39,083 nt of DNA, from assembly GCA_028712695.1 (NCBI GenBank), contig JAQTQZ010000032.1:1-39083 (forward strand). Reading direction: 5' to 3'. A model generated the notes under the pieces. It had not been told where the DNA came from, made no database searches, and saw only the letters and a program-made list of their open reading frames with translations. Both the position numbers and the translations under genes were made by a program. The DNA comes from Methylovulum sp. GTDB taxonomy: Bacteria; Pseudomonadota; Gammaproteobacteria; Methylococcales; Methylomonadaceae. Shown here in pieces: positions 29,958 through 37,735 of the stretch. Position 1 is the stretch's first letter, and the number at the start of each line of letters is the position of its first letter.

Positions 29958-30347
29958 TCGTTATTAAACTAGCCCTTCAACCGATTGCAGGTGTTTTCGG
30001 AGGCGGTTCGCGAGTGCTTAAACCCTTCAGCAACCTTCCCCATTAATCTTGTGACCCCGTCTGATTTTGGTAAAATTTTGCATTGTTAACACACTGGGCT
30101 ACTCCGGTAAAAAAAACCGGTGATTAAACAACTTGGGACGGGCATTTTTCAATGCTGTTTTCCCTTGGATACCGGATAGCTTTGCGGGCTGGTTAACAAT
30201 TACAAATCTGTCTTTAACAGTGTCCGGTTTAATTAAACCATTTTGCTTGCCACACGATTAATGACGGCGGATGATAGGGAAATAGTTTAGAAGCGACTTG
30301 ATATTACTACTCAGGCAACTCCTGCAACAACATTAATTGAGATTTTC
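29958..30347. other. Leader region of the hydrogenase-4-like operon
   Basis: About 390 bp without a gene. It holds a short hairpin CCGGT/ACCGG around an A-run (30104-30120) and a perfect 14-bp palindrome GGTTTAATTAAACC (30226-30239) that could be an operator. No convincing sigma-70 or sigma-54 promoter could be picked out by eye, but the operon promoter should lie here. Confidence 0.4.
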
Positions 30348-32474
30348 ATGATCCTACTATTAGCTTATGGTGCGGTGCTGTTCAGTTTTGCCTCCGGTTT
30401 GCTGGCGTTGATGATGGATCAGCGGCAGGTTTTGCTGGGGCTTAGCCAATATTGGTTTAAAACATTTCCGCATAACCATCAATATGGCCGGTCCGTGCTT
30501 GAGGGCCGTTTGCAGGAAGCGCATTACCCGGACGCGCTTCGGCAAGCGGTGTTCGGGTTATTGGGGCTGTCCGGCATGTTTGCTGTCCTGGCCGGTTTGG
30601 GTGTGATGGTTGGTAAAGAAGCCTTTACTGACCAAATCAGTTTAGGCTTGCCTTGGTTGCCTTGGCATGTCCGTTTTGACAGTTTGTCCGGGTTCTTCTA
30701 TTTGATTATCGGTATTGGCGTGGGGGCGGTCAGCCTTTATGGCCCGGGCTATGTCCGTGCTTATGACGAAGGCCAACATCCTTTTGCAGCCTTGGGCTTG
30801 TTTACCGGATTGTTTGTTTCTGGCATGTTGTTGGTGTTGTTGGCCGATGACGCCTTTTTCTTCATGATTGCCTGGGAATTGATGTCGGTCGCCAGTTACT
30901 TCCTGGTGGCGTTCCAACATGAAAACCCGGCCAATCGCCGTGCCGCCTTCCTGTATTTGTTGATGGCGGAAGTCGGTGCCTTGGCCATTATTTTGGGTTT
31001 CGGCGTGCTGGCCAGTTTTTCTGACGGCTTTACGTTTGATGCCTTGCGGGAGGCAAAATTATCAAGCACTTGGGCCAGTATCGCTTTTGTGCTCGCCTTG
31101 CTGGGGTTTGGCATGAAGGCCGGGGTCGTTCCTATCCACGTATGGTTGCCAGAAGCGCATCCGGTGGCGCCCTCGCATATTTCCGCGCTGATGAGCGGCG
31201 TGATGCTAAAAGTCGCGCTCTATGGGTTGATCCGCTTTTGTTATGATTTGATCGGTGATGTCCATTGGCAATGGGGGGTGGTGCTATTGATTGTCGGCAC
31301 TGTTTCGGCGTTGGGCGGTATCTTGTATGCGATGATGCAGGTCAATTTAAAACGGCTTTTGGCTTACAGTTCCGTTGAAAATATCGGCATTATTTTTATG
31401 GTTCTAGGTTTGTCGATGATTTTTATGGATAACGGCCAGCCGCAACTGGCGGCCTTGGGCTTTCTGGCGGCGTTGTTCCATGCTTTCAACCATGCCTTGT
31501 TCAAAAATTTGTTGTTCCTGGGTGCAGGCATCCTCCAGCATCAAACGCATGAGTTGAATATCGACCTGATGGGCGGTTTGATCAGACGTATGCCGCATAC
31601 CAGCAAGTTATTTTTGGTTGGCTGTATGAGCATTTCGTCCTTGCCTTTGTTTAATGGCTTTGTTTCGGAATGGCTGGCTTTCCAGACCGCATTGCAGGTT
31701 GATGTGCTGGACAATGGCGTGTTACGCAGTTTGATCCCGGTTGCCGCCGCCGCCCTGGCGTTGACGGCCGCGCTGGCGGCGGCGTGTTTTGTCAAGGTGT
31801 TCGGCATGATCTTTTTGGGGCAGTCGCGTTCACGCCACTGTGACAATGCCCATGAAGTTGACGATCAAGGGATGTTGGCAGGCCCCTCCCTGCTGGCGGG
31901 ATTATGTTTTTTAATCGGCATTTTTCCTGGCGTGATTATTAGCTTGCTCAACAGCGTTGCCGGTCAACTGCTAGGACAAACCCTGCCGAATGATTCCGCG
32001 CTGGGTTGGTTATGGCTAGCGCCGGTTTCCGCCAAGCAGGCATCTTATTCACCGCCTTTGGTGCTGATAGCCGCCTTGATTGCCGGTTGTATCAGTTTTT
32101 GGTATTTGCGGCGTAACCCTGCCACGGTGATGCGCCGGGCGGAGCCTTGGGATTGCGGTTTTGGTGGCTTGACACCACGTATGCAGTATAGTTGCCATGC
32201 GTTTACCATGCCTTTCCGGCGTATTTTTGCCAACGCCTGGATTGTTGACGAGCGGATCGACAAAGACCTGCAAGGCGCCATGGACCAGGATGTTGCCGCC
32301 ATCCGTTATCAATTGCATATCCAGGACCATAGCTGGCCAAGGCTCTATGAACCTATTGCACGCGGGGTGGACCGTTTGGCCAGACAGGTGGGGCGTATCC
32401 AAACAGGCAATATCCGGACTTATCTCGGTTATTCGTTTGCAACTTTACTGCTACTGTTATGGGTGGTCAGCTAA
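30348..32474 (+). CDS. hyfB: HyfB-like antiporter-type membrane subunit
   Basis: A 708-residue subunit related to HyfB/HycC and to the NuoL/M/N antiporter-like parts of complex I. It has about 16 hydrophobic helices. Residues expected for proton movement are present: Glu177 in AWELMSVASYF (helix 5), Lys257 in GFGMKAGVVPIH (helix 7) and the motif HVWLPEAHPVAPSHISALMSG. It is a little longer than E. coli HyfB (about 670), with the extra length partly in the C-terminal loop (RRAEPWDCGFGGLTPRMQYS, conserved in this branch). First gene of a six-gene unit; it would form part of the membrane arm. Confidence 0.93.
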   Translation: MILLLAYGAVLFSFASGLLALMMDQRQVLLGLSQYWFKTFPHNHQYGRSVLEGRLQEAHYPDALRQAVFGLLGLSGMFAVLAGLGVMVGKEAFTDQISLGLPWLPWHVRFDSLSGFFYLIIGIGVGAVSLYGPGYVRAYDEGQHPFAALGLFTGLFVSGMLLVLLADDAFFFMIAWELMSVASYFLVAFQHENPANRRAAFLYLLMAEVGALAIILGFGVLASFSDGFTFDALREAKLSSTWASIAFVLALLGFGMKAGVVPIHVWLPEAHPVAPSHISALMSGVMLKVALYGLIRFCYDLIGDVHWQWGVVLLIVGTVSALGGILYAMMQVNLKRLLAYSSVENIGIIFMVLGLSMIFMDNGQPQLAALGFLAALFHAFNHALFKNLLFLGAGILQHQTHELNIDLMGGLIRRMPHTSKLFLVGCMSISSLPLFNGFVSEWLAFQTALQVDVLDNGVLRSLIPVAAAALALTAALAAACFVKVFGMIFLGQSRSRHCDNAHEVDDQGMLAGPSLLAGLCFLIGIFPGVIISLLNSVAGQLLGQTLPNDSALGWLWLAPVSAKQASYSPPLVLIAALIAGCISFWYLRRNPATVMRRAEPWDCGFGGLTPRMQYSCHAFTMPFRRIFANAWIVDERIDKDLQGAMDQDVAAIRYQLHIQDHSWPRLYEPIARGVDRLARQVGRIQTGNIRTYLGYSFATLLLLLWVVS

Positions 32475-32499
32475 TGGTTTCAAATGTAGGGGGAACCCA

Positions 32500-33444
32500 A
32501 TGAACTGGTTGATCGCCATGTTACAAACCACGCTATTTGTCGCGCTGGCACCATTATTGGCGGGTTGGCTCAAGTGCTGCAAATGCCGCTTGCAAAACCG
32601 TAAAGCACCGTCGCTTTTTCAACCTTACCGGGATTTGATCAAGTTGACCCATAAACAACCGGTCGTTGCCGGGCAGGCCTCATGGTTATTCACTATCGCC
32701 CCATACCTGGTGTTTTCGGCAACGGTGCTGGCGGCAACAGTGGTGCCATTGATAGCGGTCGATTTGCCAACCTCCGCTAGCGCCGATGTCATTGTTATGG
32801 TGGGTTTTTTTGCCTTCGCCCGGTTTTTTCTGGCCTTAGCGGGGCTGGACATTGGCACTGCTTTTGGCGGCATGGGTTCGTCCAGGGAAATGACCATTTC
32901 ATCGCTGGCGGAACCAGCGATGCTGATGGCTATTTTTACCCTGACCATGACCGCCTCAACGACGAACTTATCGGTCGCCATCAACCATGTGCTCAATGAT
33001 GGCCTGATGTTGCGGCCCTCGTTTGTGTTTGCGTTGTTGGCCCTGATACTGGTCGCCATCGCGGAAACCGGACGCATTCCTGTCGATAACCCGTCCACGC
33101 ATCTGGAGCTGACCATGATCCATGAGGCGATGATCCTGGAATACAGCGGCCGCCATTTGGCGCTGATTGAATGGGCTAGCCAGCTCAAACTCATGCTCTA
33201 TGGCGTCTTGATCGCGAATATTTTTTTCCCGTGGGGTATCGCTGAAACCTTCACTGCACAAGCCTTAGGCTACGGTTTGCTGGCGATTATCGGCAAGCTC
33301 GCCGTCTTGGCGATATTTCTTGCGCTAGCAGAGACCTTGGTGGCAAAAATGCGTTTGTTTCGGGTGCAGGAGTACCTCAGTTTTGCCTATCTGTTAGGGC
33401 TGCTGGGTATGTTGAGCCACATCATTTTGGAGGCGTCACGCTAA
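32500..33444 (+). CDS. hyfC: HyfC/HycD-like (NuoH-type) membrane subunit
   Basis: A 314-residue subunit equivalent to NuoH of complex I and HycD/HyfC of group 4 hydrogenases (about 310 residues), which anchors the hydrophilic arm to the membrane. Eight helices are visible. Characteristic stretches are LFQPYRDLIKLTHKQPV near the start and AETGRIPVDNPSTHLELTMIHE, the acidic cytoplasmic loop conserved in this family. The frame is open for 100 codons further upstream inside hyfB, but the ATG at 32500, behind a GGGGGA ribosome-binding site, gives the family's normal start. It ends in a TAATG overlap with the next gene. Confidence 0.93.
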   Translation: MNWLIAMLQTTLFVALAPLLAGWLKCCKCRLQNRKAPSLFQPYRDLIKLTHKQPVVAGQASWLFTIAPYLVFSATVLAATVVPLIAVDLPTSASADVIVMVGFFAFARFFLALAGLDIGTAFGGMGSSREMTISSLAEPAMLMAIFTLTMTASTTNLSVAINHVLNDGLMLRPSFVFALLALILVAIAETGRIPVDNPSTHLELTMIHEAMILEYSGRHLALIEWASQLKLMLYGVLIANIFFPWGIAETFTAQALGYGLLAIIGKLAVLAIFLALAETLVAKMRLFRVQEYLSFAYLLGLLGMLSHIILEASR

Positions 33445-34121
33445 TGGATATTGAACAACAGGATTTTTATACCCAGGCCATTTTATCCCTGGCGGCATTG
33501 GTGGGCCTCACCTCGTTTCTGATGTTAGGGCAAGGACGTTTGTTACGGCTGATCTTTATCTTTGCCATGCAGGGGTTTTTATTGACCTTGACTGCGGCAT
33601 TGGCGGCCTACAGTTTGGATAATCCCCATCTGTATATTTCGGCGGTGCTGAGCTTAGTGTTAAAGGTTATTTTTATTCCGTGGATGTTGCGGCGTGAAGT
33701 CATACAAATGCAAGCCCACCGCGATATCGAAGCCTTGCACAACAAAACCACGGTGATGCTGGGCGGGGCCAGCCTAATGGTGTTCAGTTATTACGTGTTG
33801 CATCCTATCGTGCAAACCACCTCGCCGGTCATGTTGAATGCCTTGGCGGTCAGCCTTTCCGTGGTGCTGTTAGGCATGCTGCTGATGATCTCCCATCGGC
33901 AGGCCGTCGCCCACGTCGTGGGTTTTATGGCTATAGAAAACGGCCTATTTTTTGCCGCTATCGTCGCCACCAATGGTATGCCGATGGTGGTGGAGCTGGG
34001 TGTGGCTTTTGATGTGCTGGTGGCTGCGGTGTTGTTCGGTATTTTCTTCTTTCACATACGCACCAGTATTGATTCGCTGGATGTGGATAGGTTAAACCGC
34101 TTGCATGAGGTGGATAAATGA
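33444..34121 (+). CDS. hyfE: HyfE-like membrane subunit
   Basis: A 225-residue, almost wholly membrane-embedded protein, similar in size and pattern to E. coli HyfE (216), whose C-terminal part corresponds to NuoK of complex I. Helices include ILSLAALVGLTSFLML, LIFIFAMQGFLLTLTAALAAY, VLSLVLKVIFIPWMLRR (the LxLKVxxIPW pattern is typical of HyfE) and IENGLFFAAIVATNGMP with its conserved glutamate. The start codon overlaps the stop of hyfC, and the last codons overlap hyfF by 4 bp, so the genes are translationally coupled. Confidence 0.9.
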   Translation: MDIEQQDFYTQAILSLAALVGLTSFLMLGQGRLLRLIFIFAMQGFLLTLTAALAAYSLDNPHLYISAVLSLVLKVIFIPWMLRREVIQMQAHRDIEALHNKTTVMLGGASLMVFSYYVLHPIVQTTSPVMLNALAVSLSVVLLGMLLMISHRQAVAHVVGFMAIENGLFFAAIVATNGMPMVVELGVAFDVLVAAVLFGIFFFHIRTSIDSLDVDRLNRLHEVDK

Positions 34122-35581
34122 TCGCTGCCTATCTTGTCCTATTGATCCCTTTTATTGGCATTGTGTTTTTTGCGCTGGCCGGACACAAGGCGGATACCGG
34201 GAAACTCAATATCCGGTTTAACGCCGTCTGCCTGTTGGCAACGGTTTGGCTGGCGATTAACGTGCTGAATCAAGGCACGCTTTTGTCTTCAGGCAAGGCG
34301 TTTTTGATTGACCCGTTCAATGTCTATTTGATTGTGTTGACGGCGTTTGTCGGGCTCACCACGTCGATTTTTTCCTCGCCTTATATGGCGCATGAAAAGG
34401 AATTGGGCAAGCTCACGGATAAGCGCTTAAGGCTTTACTACTCCATGTACCAGGGTTTTATGCTGGCGATGTATCTGGTGCTGACCACCAACAATATGGG
34501 GGTCATGTGGGTGGCGATGGAGGGTGCGACCCTGGCCACGGTGCTGCTGGTCAGTTTGTACCGCACCCCTGAGTCCATTGAGGCGGCCTGGAAATATTTT
34601 ATCCTTTGCGGCGTGGGCATTGCCCAAGCCCTGTTCGGCACCATTTTGCTGTATTACGCCGCCGTACAGGTGGGTGACGTGGAAAATTCCCTGTTGTGGT
34701 CGGTGCTTTATGAAAATGCCAGTAAATTGAATCCGGAAATACTTGAGATAGCCTTTGTTTTCATGCTGGTCGGTTATGGCACAAAAATTGGCCTGGTGCC
34801 TTTGCATAACTGGTTGCCCGATGCCCATTCCGAAGGCCCGACGCCGATGTCGGCGGTGTTGTCAGGGTTATTGTTGAACGATGCCTTATATGCCGTCGTC
34901 CGCAATAAGATGCTGGTGGATGGGGCCAGCCATTCCGATATGGCCGGCCATTTGATGATGGGCTTTGGCATGCTGTCGTTTCTGGTGGCCGCGTTTTTCT
35001 TGCATCGGCAGAAGGACATCAAAAGGTTGTTCAGTTATTCATCCATCGAACACATGGGCATCATGACTTTTGCCTTTGGCATGGGGGGCCCCTTAGCCAC
35101 TTTTGCCGCATTGCTGCACATGACCGTGCATTCGCTGACCAAATCGGCCATTTTTGTGACGGTGGGCCATGCTTCACAAGTTGCCGGCACCCAAAGCATG
35201 GATAAAATCCGTGGTTTGATCAAAACCCAACCACGGATTGGTTGGGGGCTATTGATAGGCACGGTCGCCATTGCCGGCTTTCCCCCTTTTGGCGTGTTTA
35301 CCAGCGAGTTTTTGGTGTTGTTAGCGACGATGCACAGCTATCCTTGGCTGACGCCATTGCTATTGTTGGGCATAGGCATCGCCTTTGCCGGTTTGTTCAG
35401 GCATGTACAACCGATGGTTTACGGCAATCAACCGGAAGGCCAATTCCCCGTTAAAGCCAACCTGTGGCCAGTGATGATCCATCTGGGTTTAGTGTTGTGG
35501 CTGGGTTTGGCCATTCCTGGCTTTTTGGCCCACTGGTTTTCACAGGCGACCTTGTTAATTTCCGGGAGCACACCGTTATGA
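34118..35581 (+). CDS. hyfF: HyfF-like antiporter-type membrane subunit
   Basis: A 487-residue second antiporter-like subunit (E. coli HyfF has 526). Key residues are present: Glu135 in WVAMEGATLATVLLVSLY and Lys223 in VGYGTKIGLVPLHNWLPDAH, followed by PTPMSAVLSGLLLNDALYAVVR and a third conserved helix with RQKDIKRLFSYSSIEHMG, all hallmarks of proton-translocating NuoL/M-type proteins. With HyfB it gives the complex two potential ion paths. The last bases overlap the large-subunit start (ATGA). Confidence 0.93.
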   Translation: MIAAYLVLLIPFIGIVFFALAGHKADTGKLNIRFNAVCLLATVWLAINVLNQGTLLSSGKAFLIDPFNVYLIVLTAFVGLTTSIFSSPYMAHEKELGKLTDKRLRLYYSMYQGFMLAMYLVLTTNNMGVMWVAMEGATLATVLLVSLYRTPESIEAAWKYFILCGVGIAQALFGTILLYYAAVQVGDVENSLLWSVLYENASKLNPEILEIAFVFMLVGYGTKIGLVPLHNWLPDAHSEGPTPMSAVLSGLLLNDALYAVVRNKMLVDGASHSDMAGHLMMGFGMLSFLVAAFFLHRQKDIKRLFSYSSIEHMGIMTFAFGMGGPLATFAALLHMTVHSLTKSAIFVTVGHASQVAGTQSMDKIRGLIKTQPRIGWGLLIGTVAIAGFPPFGVFTSEFLVLLATMHSYPWLTPLLLLGIGIAFAGLFRHVQPMVYGNQPEGQFPVKANLWPVMIHLGLVLWLGLAIPGFLAHWFSQATLLISGSTPL

Positions 35582-37155
35582 GCGCTGCAAACTGGACGGC
35601 GAATTTTTTGAACCAGCTGACTGCCGCCGCTATTAGCGTTGAACAATTCAGCCTGCCATCGGCAAGTTTGTGGCAAATCGAAAGCCGGCACTGGCAACAG
35701 TTTGCCACACTTGCGGTAGGGCAAGATGTGCGCTGGGTAGCCGGATGGGCGGAACACGTTGAAGGCCGGTTATTCATCAATGCCTGTTTTGAAAAACAGG
35801 GCGTTTATGTGTTGTTAAGGACTATTGTCAACGCCGCGAAACCGGAACTACCCTCACAAGCCACGGTTTATCCTGCCGCCAGCCGCAGTGAACGCCACAC
35901 CCAGGATATGTTTGGCGTCCATTTTACGGGACATCCCGACCATCGCCGCTGGACCCGTCATCAAGCCTGGGCCAAACACGATTATCCCTTACGCAAGGAT
36001 TTTCCTGTGCAGGGCGAGCCGGAAACCGTCACGCCGCCCGATAAGGATTATCAATTTATAAAAGCGCACGGGGAGGGGGTTTATGAAATTCCCGTGGGGC
36101 CTGTCCATGCCGGTATTATTGAGCCTGGGCATTTTCGCTTTCAGGCGGTAGGCGAACTGATTTTGAATCTGGAAGAACGCTTGGGTTATGTGCACAAAGG
36201 CATCGAGAAAATCGCCGAAGGCCGGACGCCGGAATCTTTAGCGCGTCTGGCCGGGCGCGTTTCCGGTGACACCACCGTGGGGCATTGCTGGGCGGCTTGC
36301 CGGGCAATGGAGCAAGCCGCCGGTATTGAAATTCCCCCCCGCGCGGCGTTGCTGCGCGGCATTCTGGCGGAGCGCGAACGGGTCGCCAACCATCTGGGTG
36401 ATATGGGCGCGATTTGCAATGATGTCGCCTTTATTTTTGCGCACATGCAGTTTAGCCGTTTGCGTGAACTGTGGCTGCGCACCAATGCCGCTGTTTTTGG
36501 CCATCGTTTGTTAATGGACAGGATAGTTCCGGGCGGTGTTGCTTGTGATTTATCCGCATCGGCCTGTACTTTGATTAAACAGGAGATAGTTCAGTTAAGT
36601 AAAGAACTGTCAGAAATCATTACCGCAATAGACCTTAACTCATCGTTGGAAGACCGGATATACACGGCGGGTTATTTGGCTCCGGAAATCGCCGCCGCGT
36701 TTGGTACGGTCGGTTACGTCGGCCGGGCTAGCGGACAGGATAGGGATGTCCGCCGCGACGCGCCTTATCTGCCTTACGATCATGCCAGCTTTAAAGTCGC
36801 GTTGGAAGATCAGGGCGATGTTGCCTCAAGGTTCTGGGTAAGATACAAGGAAATCAATGCGTCATTAAAACTTATCAAGCAATTTATAGCGCAACTTGCG
36901 GCAGGCAGCACGCTGACCGAATGGCAAGCGCCACCCGCAGGCAGTGAAGCCTTAAGCATCGTTGAAGGTTGGCGCGGTGAAACCATCGCTTATGTCCGCT
37001 TCGATGCCGACAATAAAATCGCCCGTTATTATCCACGCGACCCCAGCATCCTGAACTGGCCTGCATTGGAAAAACTGGTGCTGAACAATATCGTGCCGGA
37101 CTTTCCTGTGTGCAACAAATCCCTGAATGGCTCTTATTCAGGCAACGATTTATAG
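35578..37155 (+). CDS. HyfG/HycE-like large subunit lacking all NiFe-binding cysteines
   Basis: A 525-residue fusion of a NuoC-like domain (residues about 1-150, with RSERHTQDMFGVHFTGHPD) and a NuoD/[NiFe]-hydrogenase large-subunit-like domain (about 165-525). In hydrogenases the active site is held by RxCGxC near the start and DPCxxC at the end. Here the first motif reads RVSGDT (227-232) and the last NGSYSG (517-522), so all four ligand cysteines are missing and the protein ends three residues later without a tail for maturation. Hydrogenase activity is therefore excluded on present knowledge. It resembles the Ehr (energy-converting-hydrogenase-related) group. The ATG at 35578 overlaps the hyfF stop; a longer open frame upstream is within hyfF. 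Confidence 0.88.
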   Translation: MSAANWTANFLNQLTAAAISVEQFSLPSASLWQIESRHWQQFATLAVGQDVRWVAGWAEHVEGRLFINACFEKQGVYVLLRTIVNAAKPELPSQATVYPAASRSERHTQDMFGVHFTGHPDHRRWTRHQAWAKHDYPLRKDFPVQGEPETVTPPDKDYQFIKAHGEGVYEIPVGPVHAGIIEPGHFRFQAVGELILNLEERLGYVHKGIEKIAEGRTPESLARLAGRVSGDTTVGHCWAACRAMEQAAGIEIPPRAALLRGILAERERVANHLGDMGAICNDVAFIFAHMQFSRLRELWLRTNAAVFGHRLLMDRIVPGGVACDLSASACTLIKQEIVQLSKELSEIITAIDLNSSLEDRIYTAGYLAPEIAAAFGTVGYVGRASGQDRDVRRDAPYLPYDHASFKVALEDQGDVASRFWVRYKEINASLKLIKQFIAQLAAGSTLTEWQAPPAGSEALSIVEGWRGETIAYVRFDADNKIARYYPRDPSILNWPALEKLVLNNIVPDFPVCNKSLNGSYSGNDL

Positions 37156-37163
37156 GAGGCAGT

Positions 37164-37673
37164 GTGCTGCGGCTGTTTAAAAAAATTATCACAACCGGTG
37201 TCGTCACTGAGAAGTGTAAAGTCCCTAAAGAGGATGAACTGGAACGGCTGGGTATCCAGATCAAAAACCACATCGACAAGAACTTTTCCGGCAGCATTAC
37301 CATACGAGCAGTCGATGCCGGTTCCTGCAATGGTTGCGAATTGGAAATCCATGCGCTCAATAACCCTTATTATGATATTGAGCGCTTTGGCATCCATTTT
37401 GCCGCATCGCCACGGCATGCCGATGTATTATTGGTGACCGGCCCGGTGTCGCGGCACATGCAGACGGCATTACTGCGGACTTACGAAGCAACGCCGAACC
37501 CGAAATGGGTGGTTGCAGTCGGTGACTGCGCCGCTTGCGGGGGGGAATTTGGGGTTTCTTACGCCAGTTGCGGCGCAGTGTCCAATGTGATACCTGTCGA
37601 TGTGGTAATAGCCGGTTGTCCGCCCACGCCACAGGCATTAATGAAGGGGTTGCTGGGGCTTATGAAGGGATGA
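37164..37673 (+). CDS. HyfI/HycG-like (NuoB-type) iron-sulfur small subunit
   Basis: A subunit of about 169 residues, shorter than E. coli HycG/HyfI (about 250). The four cysteines for the proximal [4Fe-4S] cluster are intact: CNGCE (Cys55, Cys58), GDCAACGG (Cys122) and GCPPTP (Cys152), so it can still carry electrons although its partner has lost the NiFe site. The start is taken as the GTG at 37164 because a strong AGGAGG (37154-37159) lies directly before it; upstream the frame runs into the large-subunit gene. Last gene of the unit. No HyfA or HyfH ferredoxin-like subunit follows. Confidence 0.88.
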   Translation: MLRLFKKIITTGVVTEKCKVPKEDELERLGIQIKNHIDKNFSGSITIRAVDAGSCNGCELEIHALNNPYYDIERFGIHFAASPRHADVLLVTGPVSRHMQTALLRTYEATPNPKWVVAVGDCAACGGEFGVSYASCGAVSNVIPVDVVIAGCPPTPQALMKGLLGLMKG

Positions 37674-37735
37674 CAGCCTTACAGGGATCCGATATTTACC
37701 AATAATTGCCTATTAACACTCGGATAAAACTAAAG

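Follow-up and report, generated by a model that had tools for sequence, protein, structure and literature searches.

An Ehr operon of Methylovulum with an exchanged NiFe site, and the likely carbon-uptake genes beside its relatives

The large subunit and its lost NiFe site

Ehr (energy-converting hydrogenase-related) complexes, whose founding papers are reportedly Coppi (2005) and Marreiros (2013), form a known kind of complex I relative. In the cited passages, those of Geobacter, Sulfobacillus, and comammox Nitrospira have a large subunit without nickel-iron (NiFe) ligands, membrane subunits resembling those of complex I, HyfB, and HyfE, and a small subunit (PMC4378227, PMC7894505, PMC10284858), and two sources, in the parts consulted, still call their function unknown (PMC4378227, PMC10284858). 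Here we analyzed a 39,083-nt stretch of DNA (the window), which is one contig (C41) of the 3.79-Mb genome of Methylovulum sp. (G000). It carries a six-gene operon, hyfB-hyfC-hyfE-hyfF-hyfG-hyfI, at positions 30348-37673 of the plus strand (7.4 kb), which combines HyfB/C/E/F-like membrane subunits with a NuoB-like small subunit, as Ehr complexes do; the excerpted Ehr descriptions (PMC4378227, PMC6349859, PMC10284858, PMC3569383, PMC7894505) fit it. As judged from sequence comparison, the operon encodes an Ehr complex that groups with the HycE/HyfG-type hydrogenases. The Ehr family itself is already known; what is new here is its gene context with SulP and dabAB. In many relatives, likely bicarbonate or CO2 uptake genes lie beside the operon, which suggests a job for Ehr, and we give an even chance to the complex being a redox-driven ion pump that serves inorganic-carbon uptake.

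The hyfG gene (35578..37155, +; stop codon at 37153-37155) encodes the large subunit (EhrL), a 525-residue protein of fused 30-kDa and 49-kDa domains that ends at L525. HycE of the solved formate hydrogenlyase (7z0s_E) is its top solved sequence match (E 1.2e-68) and likewise its top fold match (TM 0.85). In the alignment to HycE, the first ligand motif, RVSGDT (residues 227-232; 36256..36273, +), falls on RVCGIC (RMDYLH in Thermus Nqo4) and replaces RxCGxC, and NGSYSGND falls on DPCYSCTD; the ligand positions are thus occupied by S229, T232, S519, and G522, and none of the four ligand cysteines is left. A preliminary description of this DNA had recognized both motifs as cysteine-free, and the alignments of HyfG with HycE, MbhL, and Nqo4 bear this out, since none of them reveals a misplaced cysteine. 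The C-terminal motif, NGSYSGNDL (517-525) plus the stop codon (37126..37155, +), aligned to DPCYSCTDR of HycE, takes the place of both DPCxxC and the propeptide. E. coli HycE and HyfG continue for 32 residues beyond the residue aligned with L525, whereas the HyfG of the window stops there, three residues past the last ligand position, and therefore has no propeptide for a maturation protease.

These replacements are near-fixed among relatives. We retrieved 80 named loci by the peptide patterns IEPGHFRF and DFP[VL][CI]NKS (residues 181-188 and 508-515), 79 of which are informative at the first motif. All four ligand positions fall outside these two stretches. Position 229 is serine in 72 of the 79 loci (A in 5, V in 1, C in 1) and position 232 is serine in 51 and threonine in 24 (A in 3, C in 1), while among all 80 loci position 519 is serine in 75 (N in 4, A in 1) and position 522 is invariably glycine. 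At the four positions together, 114 of 120 Ehr sequences have no cysteine, six have one, and none has two. The neighboring pocket residues are fixed as well (D231 in 79/79, N517 in 79/80, Y520 and D524 in 80/80), and Y520 and D524 are also present in HycE. N517 stands where HycE has its canopy aspartate, Asp529, an aspartate called strictly conserved in the cited passage (PMC9474812). H177, H272, and R466 are kept too, as is E182 (E193 of HycE; 78/79 loci), although fixation within residues 181-188 and 508-515, that of E182 and I181 included, is partly built in because the retrieval patterns cover these stretches. Because the replacements are near-fixed, the protein ends at L525 in 80/80 loci, and the small subunit HyfI keeps its cluster cysteines, the change of the NiFe site is not decay, in agreement with the preliminary description; a pseudogene was also rejected on the open frame and the conserved pocket. 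Taken together, these comparisons indicate that the large subunit is not a hydrogenase and that its NiFe site has been exchanged for another conserved pocket.

In a FastTree tree of 128 sequences (120 Ehr sequences, with that of the window and two duplicates included, plus references), the Ehr sequences group at a support of 0.997, adjoining HycE/HyfG and apart from NuoCD. The preliminary assignment to a group 4-related, Ehr-type complex agrees with this placement, with HycE as the closest solved relative by sequence and fold, and with the published descriptions as far as cited above. Members of the clade come from Alpha-, Beta-, and Gammaproteobacteria, Nitrospirae, Geobacter, and Mariprofundus records, and include a Geobacter sp. 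locus (L101), which may be the published EhrL. The named HyfG relatives that come closest among the matches listed belong to Methylococcales, chiefly Methylobacter, and among at least 587 pattern matches listed, 580 encode an Ehr relative. Four of the 120 sequences (L199-L202, from G080, G187, and G273) form a second Ehr-like subclade, sister to the main clade, in which the ligand cysteines are absent and an own motif pair occurs, e.g., RFSGNA ... LASFGLSVAENDR (GLSVAENDR); the hyfB-like gene of L199 and L202 stands at the end of the operon (order C-E-F-G-I-B).

Operon layout, partner subunits, and candidate electron path

The first gene, hyfB (30348..32474, +), encodes a 708-residue antiporter-type membrane subunit (PF00361, E 2e-55; NCBIfam hydrogenase 4 subunit B above cut-off) and is followed after 25 nt by hyfC (32500..33444, +), whose 314-residue product, read from the ATG at 32500, resembles the membrane anchors HyfC, HycD, and NuoH (PF00146, E 2e-36; top solved relative HycD, 7z0s_D). 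One base is shared between hyfC and hyfE (33444..34121, +), the latter encoding a 225-residue membrane subunit that has no Pfam match and matches NCBIfam hydrogenase 4 membrane subunit E under the cut-off (1e-23). ATGA overlaps join hyfE to hyfF (34118..35581, +), which encodes a second antiporter-type membrane subunit (487 residues; NCBIfam hydrogenase 4 subunit F above cut-off), and hyfF to hyfG, with the hyfG ATG at 35578. An 8-nt gap, with GGAGG ahead of a GTG start, then leads to hyfI (37164..37673, +), which encodes the 169-residue small subunit (EhrS; PF01058, E 8e-33) with one predicted [4Fe-4S] site (C55, C58, C122, C152). The order B-C-E-F-G-I recurs in 64 of the 80 named loci and in 112 of the 137 loci of a larger set, which holds 135 distinct hyfG genes (two identical pairs).

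E. coli hydrogenase-4 (hyf A-B-C-D-E-F-G-H-I-J) has counterparts of all six subunits, arranged alike, and its hyfA, hyfD, hyfH, and hyfJ are absent from the window operon. Across the 137 loci, a HyfA homologue was found near none and a HyfH match near two. The operon had been called complete and tightly coupled: the coupling holds, and so does completeness when measured by Ehr, whereas by the standard of E. coli hyf the operon lacks hyfA, hyfD, and hyfH. NuoI-like and NADH-module subunits are likewise absent from the operon, to which the search for NuoE/F/G was confined.

The partner subunits are well kept. The four HyfI cysteines, which have the hydrogenase CxxC spacing in an ungapped alignment to HycG, are retained in 77, 77, 77, and 76 (plus one gap) of 77 loci in a count numbered from 37155. 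HyfB E177, K257, K335, K386, and E441 are invariant over 76 loci except for gaps (1-8 per column), as are HyfF E135, K159, K223, K302, K342, and E397 over 78 loci (0-5 gaps per column). The HyfC acids E131, E139, E190, D197, E204, E210, and E215 (numbered from 32497; one lower if counted from the ATG at 32500) are kept in 66-67 of 67 loci, and HyfE K74, E165, and E184 in 71, 69, and 70 of 71 loci, respectively. Because the cluster, coupling, and channel residues are kept, the complex, which has a single cluster-binding subunit, looks intact everywhere except at its catalytic site.

We propose that a soluble donor, with ferredoxin as the first guess, would hand its electrons directly to the HyfI cluster, because the operon encodes no NuoI/HyfH-like wire. 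From there the electrons would pass to a non-H2 acceptor in the HyfG pocket, which may be a quinone held differently from that of complex I or something else, and the redox energy would drive ion pumping; the complex retains two antiporter-like channel subunits, HyfB and HyfF, and the acid-rich coupling subunit HyfC. An orphan wire encoded elsewhere was rejected: the genome has no NuoI above the family cut-off and only weak ferredoxin-type matches.

Complex I shares with the window complex the large-subunit fold, the proximal cluster subunit, and the coupling and antiporter subunits; the window differs in its CxxC cluster motif and the missing NADH module. It differs also in the pocket. H38 and Y87 of Thermus Nqo4, named as quinone residues in the cited passage (PMC7684303), correspond to I181 and G230 of HyfG in an ungapped alignment to 2fug_4, and the quinone-like cavity envisaged in the preliminary description is accordingly not borne out by its His/Tyr pair. 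In the AlphaFold model of HyfG (mean predicted local distance difference test score, pLDDT, 81), the pocket segments (158-205 and 505-525) score below 50, and the model therefore yields no cavity geometry. Pyrococcus MBS, in the part of the source cited, also has no H38/Y87 counterparts and lacks two of the four NiFe cysteines (PMC7684303), which would suit a sulfane sulfur reductase of the same kind. We regard this as very improbable: in the passages describing it, the MBS proximal cluster is held by three cysteines and its motif is shortened; HyfI, by contrast, has all four cysteines at the hydrogenase spacing. MBS is also described there as having no counterpart of MbhL E21 (PMC7684303), whereas this glutamate is kept here as E182.

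A general respiratory role has to be weighed more seriously. The genome, which looks like that of a methanotroph by its PF02461 protein (particulate methane/ammonia monooxygenase family) and its Methylococcales HyfG relatives, has hyfG as its only PF00346 (NuoD family) match, and neither a NuoI above the cut-off nor an NqrA match was found in it; 14 of 20 Ehr-positive genomes likewise have no NuoCD-like match. Ehr could be a respiratory pump that moves electrons from a carrier to quinone or some other acceptor in place of a missing complex I, with SulP and dabAB neighbors reflecting pH/anion homeostasis or a shared integration site. In favor of this explanation, the DNA shared with the two closest genomes is the operon alone (30309-37682 with G019 and 30327-37669 with G006, 92-94% identity); it is as if the operon moves like a cassette, its flanks differing in each. 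Ehr is, moreover, common in lineages without a SulP link. We accord this explanation a substantial minority chance, held down by the six of the 20 genomes that encode NuoCD besides Ehr, by a pocket without both quinone ligands of complex I, and by the placement of the SulP genes described below.

SulP and DabAB genes beside Ehr operons

In Methylococcales relatives, the operon often comes after one or two SulP genes and is followed by genes for a DUF2490 protein, a histidine kinase, and a sigma-54 response regulator. We surveyed 151 genomes of the window's family and found hyfG in 77 (one of two fragments in G440 was dropped); SulP matches were listed at 150 places, which cover 117 of the 128 matching genomes, and the SulP counts are lower bounds. 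The survey counts are uncorrected for contig ends, and a missing neighbor can reflect a short contig because locus lengths differ. At least 42 of the 77 family loci have SulP no more than 12 kb upstream of hyfG; among the matches listed, 39 loci have it upstream on the same strand (12 of them with two copies), three upstream and divergent, and none downstream. In the 137-locus set, SulP is near 20 loci, 14 from Methylococcales and six from elsewhere (L068, L081, L094, L128, L132, and L173), and the latter belong to a different one of the two SulP subfamilies. The set contains 127 complete blocks (B, G, and I together), around which 803 kb downstream and 474 kb upstream were scanned; SulP is upstream on the same strand of 16, inside one, upstream on the opposite strand of one, and downstream of none. 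In Methylocaldum (L082), a SulP gene sits between hyfF and hyfG. Such one-sided placement, found in two subfamilies and once within the operon, argues against the account of a general respiratory pump.

A Pfam tally of same-strand neighbors within 3.5 kb of the 80 loci (71 proteins upstream and 90 downstream) is led by SulP upstream (11/71) and by DUF2490 (7/90) and two-component proteins (6/90) downstream; apart from SulP and its co-scoring domains, no family among the best 25 of 75 exceeds 4/71 upstream. In L153 (5296-6187), pieces of a SulP gene, spread over several frames just ahead of hyfB, are likely the pseudogene remnant of a linked carrier. A spermidine-synthase-like gene is found directly ahead of hyfB in three Burkholderiaceae loci (L105, L108, and L143) and nearby in a fourth (L142).

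SulP carriers have been proposed or shown to be bicarbonate carriers in other bacteria, according to the portions cited (PMC6458275, PMC11423575, PMC8438413), and we infer from gene context that bicarbonate is the substrate here. A full-text search of the literature outside subscription papers returned no paper tying Ehr or hyf to SulP or dabAB; set against published Ehr, this linkage is a feature of the Methylococcales loci analyzed here.

The second line of context is DAB, which consists of DabA, a beta-carbonic-anhydrase-like protein, and DabB, without a redox part; the passages cited portray its DAB2 version as a carbonic anhydrase powered by proton-motive force (PMC13144422). DAB shares NuoL-like PF00361 subunits with the window operon and SulP and DUF2490 neighbors with its Ehr relatives; DabA is absent from the operon. 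On another contig of the same genome (C76; L209), SulP, cut by the contig end, precedes DabA (PF10070, E 3e-224), DabB, and DUF2490, a layout parallel to SulP-hyf-DUF2490 in relatives, and this SulP is an orthologue of the Ehr-linked one. Three Ehr-negative congeners carry SulP-DabA-DabB (L214, L217, and L219). Two congeners have both systems side by side: G010 (L151) reads SulP-SulP-hyfBCEFGI-DabA-DabB-DUF2490, and the closest relative, G019 (L149; HyfG 93%), carries DabA-DabB after hyfI in the same orientation. Among 51 places with dabA of the C76 subfamily (other DabA subfamilies, at about 29-47% identity, and split pieces were dropped), at least 21 have the same SulP group within 5 kb. The SulP tree places the Ehr-linked and Dab-linked copies of a single type in sister groups within one clade (0.994), and the copy of G010, where both partners are present, belongs to the Dab group. 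In a further Ehr-negative congener (G016, L211:14611-16788), a 726-residue fusion joins SulP to a C-terminal beta-carbonic anhydrase (PF00916 + PF00484).

We return to the redox-driven pump serving carbon uptake, for which this context, marked in one family but patchy beyond it, makes the case; the evidence lies outside the window. In Methylococcales, the pump would be part of an inorganic-carbon module with a SulP carrier and/or DabAB, the latter performing vectorial CO2 hydration by proton-motive force, and it might either supply ion-motive force locally or replace DabAB. If so, a redox-driven carbon pump would be added to methanotrophs, the hydrogenase pocket would have met a further fate besides quinone reduction and sulfur reduction, and in any case the SulP and DabAB linkage gives a concrete hypothesis for the widespread Ehr. 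Whether this extends to the whole clade is doubtful: Ehr complexes would then be redox-powered inorganic-carbon pumps, derived from a hydrogenase by pocket exchange and adding to NDH-1MS and DAB a third energy-coupled system for accumulating CO2/bicarbonate.

Weighing the carbon link

Several observations weigh against the link to carbon uptake. Upstream of the operon, the window holds a resistance-nodulation-division (RND) efflux set and a SnoaL-like gene, and SulP, dabA, and DUF2490 are absent from it. None of eight tested SulP proteins reaches the NCBIfam BicA or DauA cut-off, while the six from outside Methylococcales reach that for 'sulfate permease'. Of the 150 SulP places listed, 78 have neither Ehr nor dabA adjoining, and most Ehr loci examined beyond Methylococcales have no SulP link. 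In an incomplete gene table, no carbon-uptake gene is annotated close to the plasmid copies of Burkholderia, Paraburkholderia, Rhizobium, and the methanotroph Methylocalor. Own-type dabA lies within 12 kb of only two of the 77 family Ehr loci, and in the 151 family genomes this dabA subfamily occurs somewhat less often where Ehr is present (20/77 vs 31/74; p 0.04, with neither phylogeny nor multiple testing corrected for). Across the class (274 genomes), Ehr shows no association with DabA (9/35 vs 59/239, p 1.0) or with the RuBisCO family (20/35 vs 121/239, p 0.59); the Methylovulum genome has two dabA genes, yet no PF00016 (RuBisCO) match, and RuBisCO-linked carbon fixation was rejected on these grounds. 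With E. coli Can as the query, no beta-carbonic anhydrase was found near any of the 137 loci.

In L128, which speaks for the link, the order is SulP, hexapeptide protein, hyfB, and the hexapeptide protein has a gamma-carbonic-anhydrase-like histidine pattern; that beside L076 resembles an acyltransferase by eye. In Acidithiobacillus caldus, a hyfBCEFG cluster, of either Ehr or hydrogenase type, lies beside a beta-carbonic anhydrase according to the cited passage (PMC3826726).

The slight mutual exclusion of Ehr and dabA, together with the like SulP-hyf-DUF2490 and SulP-dabAB-DUF2490 layouts, would speak for the complex itself being a vectorial carbonic anhydrase, in which the emptied NiFe pocket or an adjoining cavity hydrates CO2 and redox or ion flow drives the reaction one way, as a counterpart of NDH-1MS and DAB. 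Cyanobacterial NDH-1MS, a complex I relative that couples electron flow to CO2 hydration in the accounts cited (PMC8438413, PMC13144422), would be the mechanistic precedent, and the pocket region offers candidate residues (D231 and N517 fixed; H177, H272, and E182 retained). We consider this unlikely. Among the six operon proteins, there is no match to DabA, to a carbonic anhydrase, or to the CupA/CupB-type family of NDH-1MS, a role of that kind being suggested here by gene context; no zinc motif was recognized by eye, the pocket segments are those modeled at low pLDDT, and adjoining Ehr and DabAB in two genomes points to complementing rather than replacing.

The regulators found downstream in relatives bear on one more explanation, in which a formate dehydrogenase encoded elsewhere feeds HyfI. 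SulP-family carriers could move formate, and sigma-54-type regulators recall FhlA/HyfR. Such a formate-linked complex has been proposed for Geobacter and Margulisbacteria Ehr; as far as the cited parts go, Geobacter Ehr subunits increase with formate (PMC7894505) and an FDH-Ehr has been put forward (PMC6349859). With HyfA missing near all 137 loci, and no formate dehydrogenase family among the best 25 of 75 upstream or the best 25 of 107 downstream families, we judge it quite improbable for the operon described here. Beyond the operon, an open reading frame of 209 codons without a Pfam match occupies the contig end (38453-39082, -), and its product is hydrophobic by eye.

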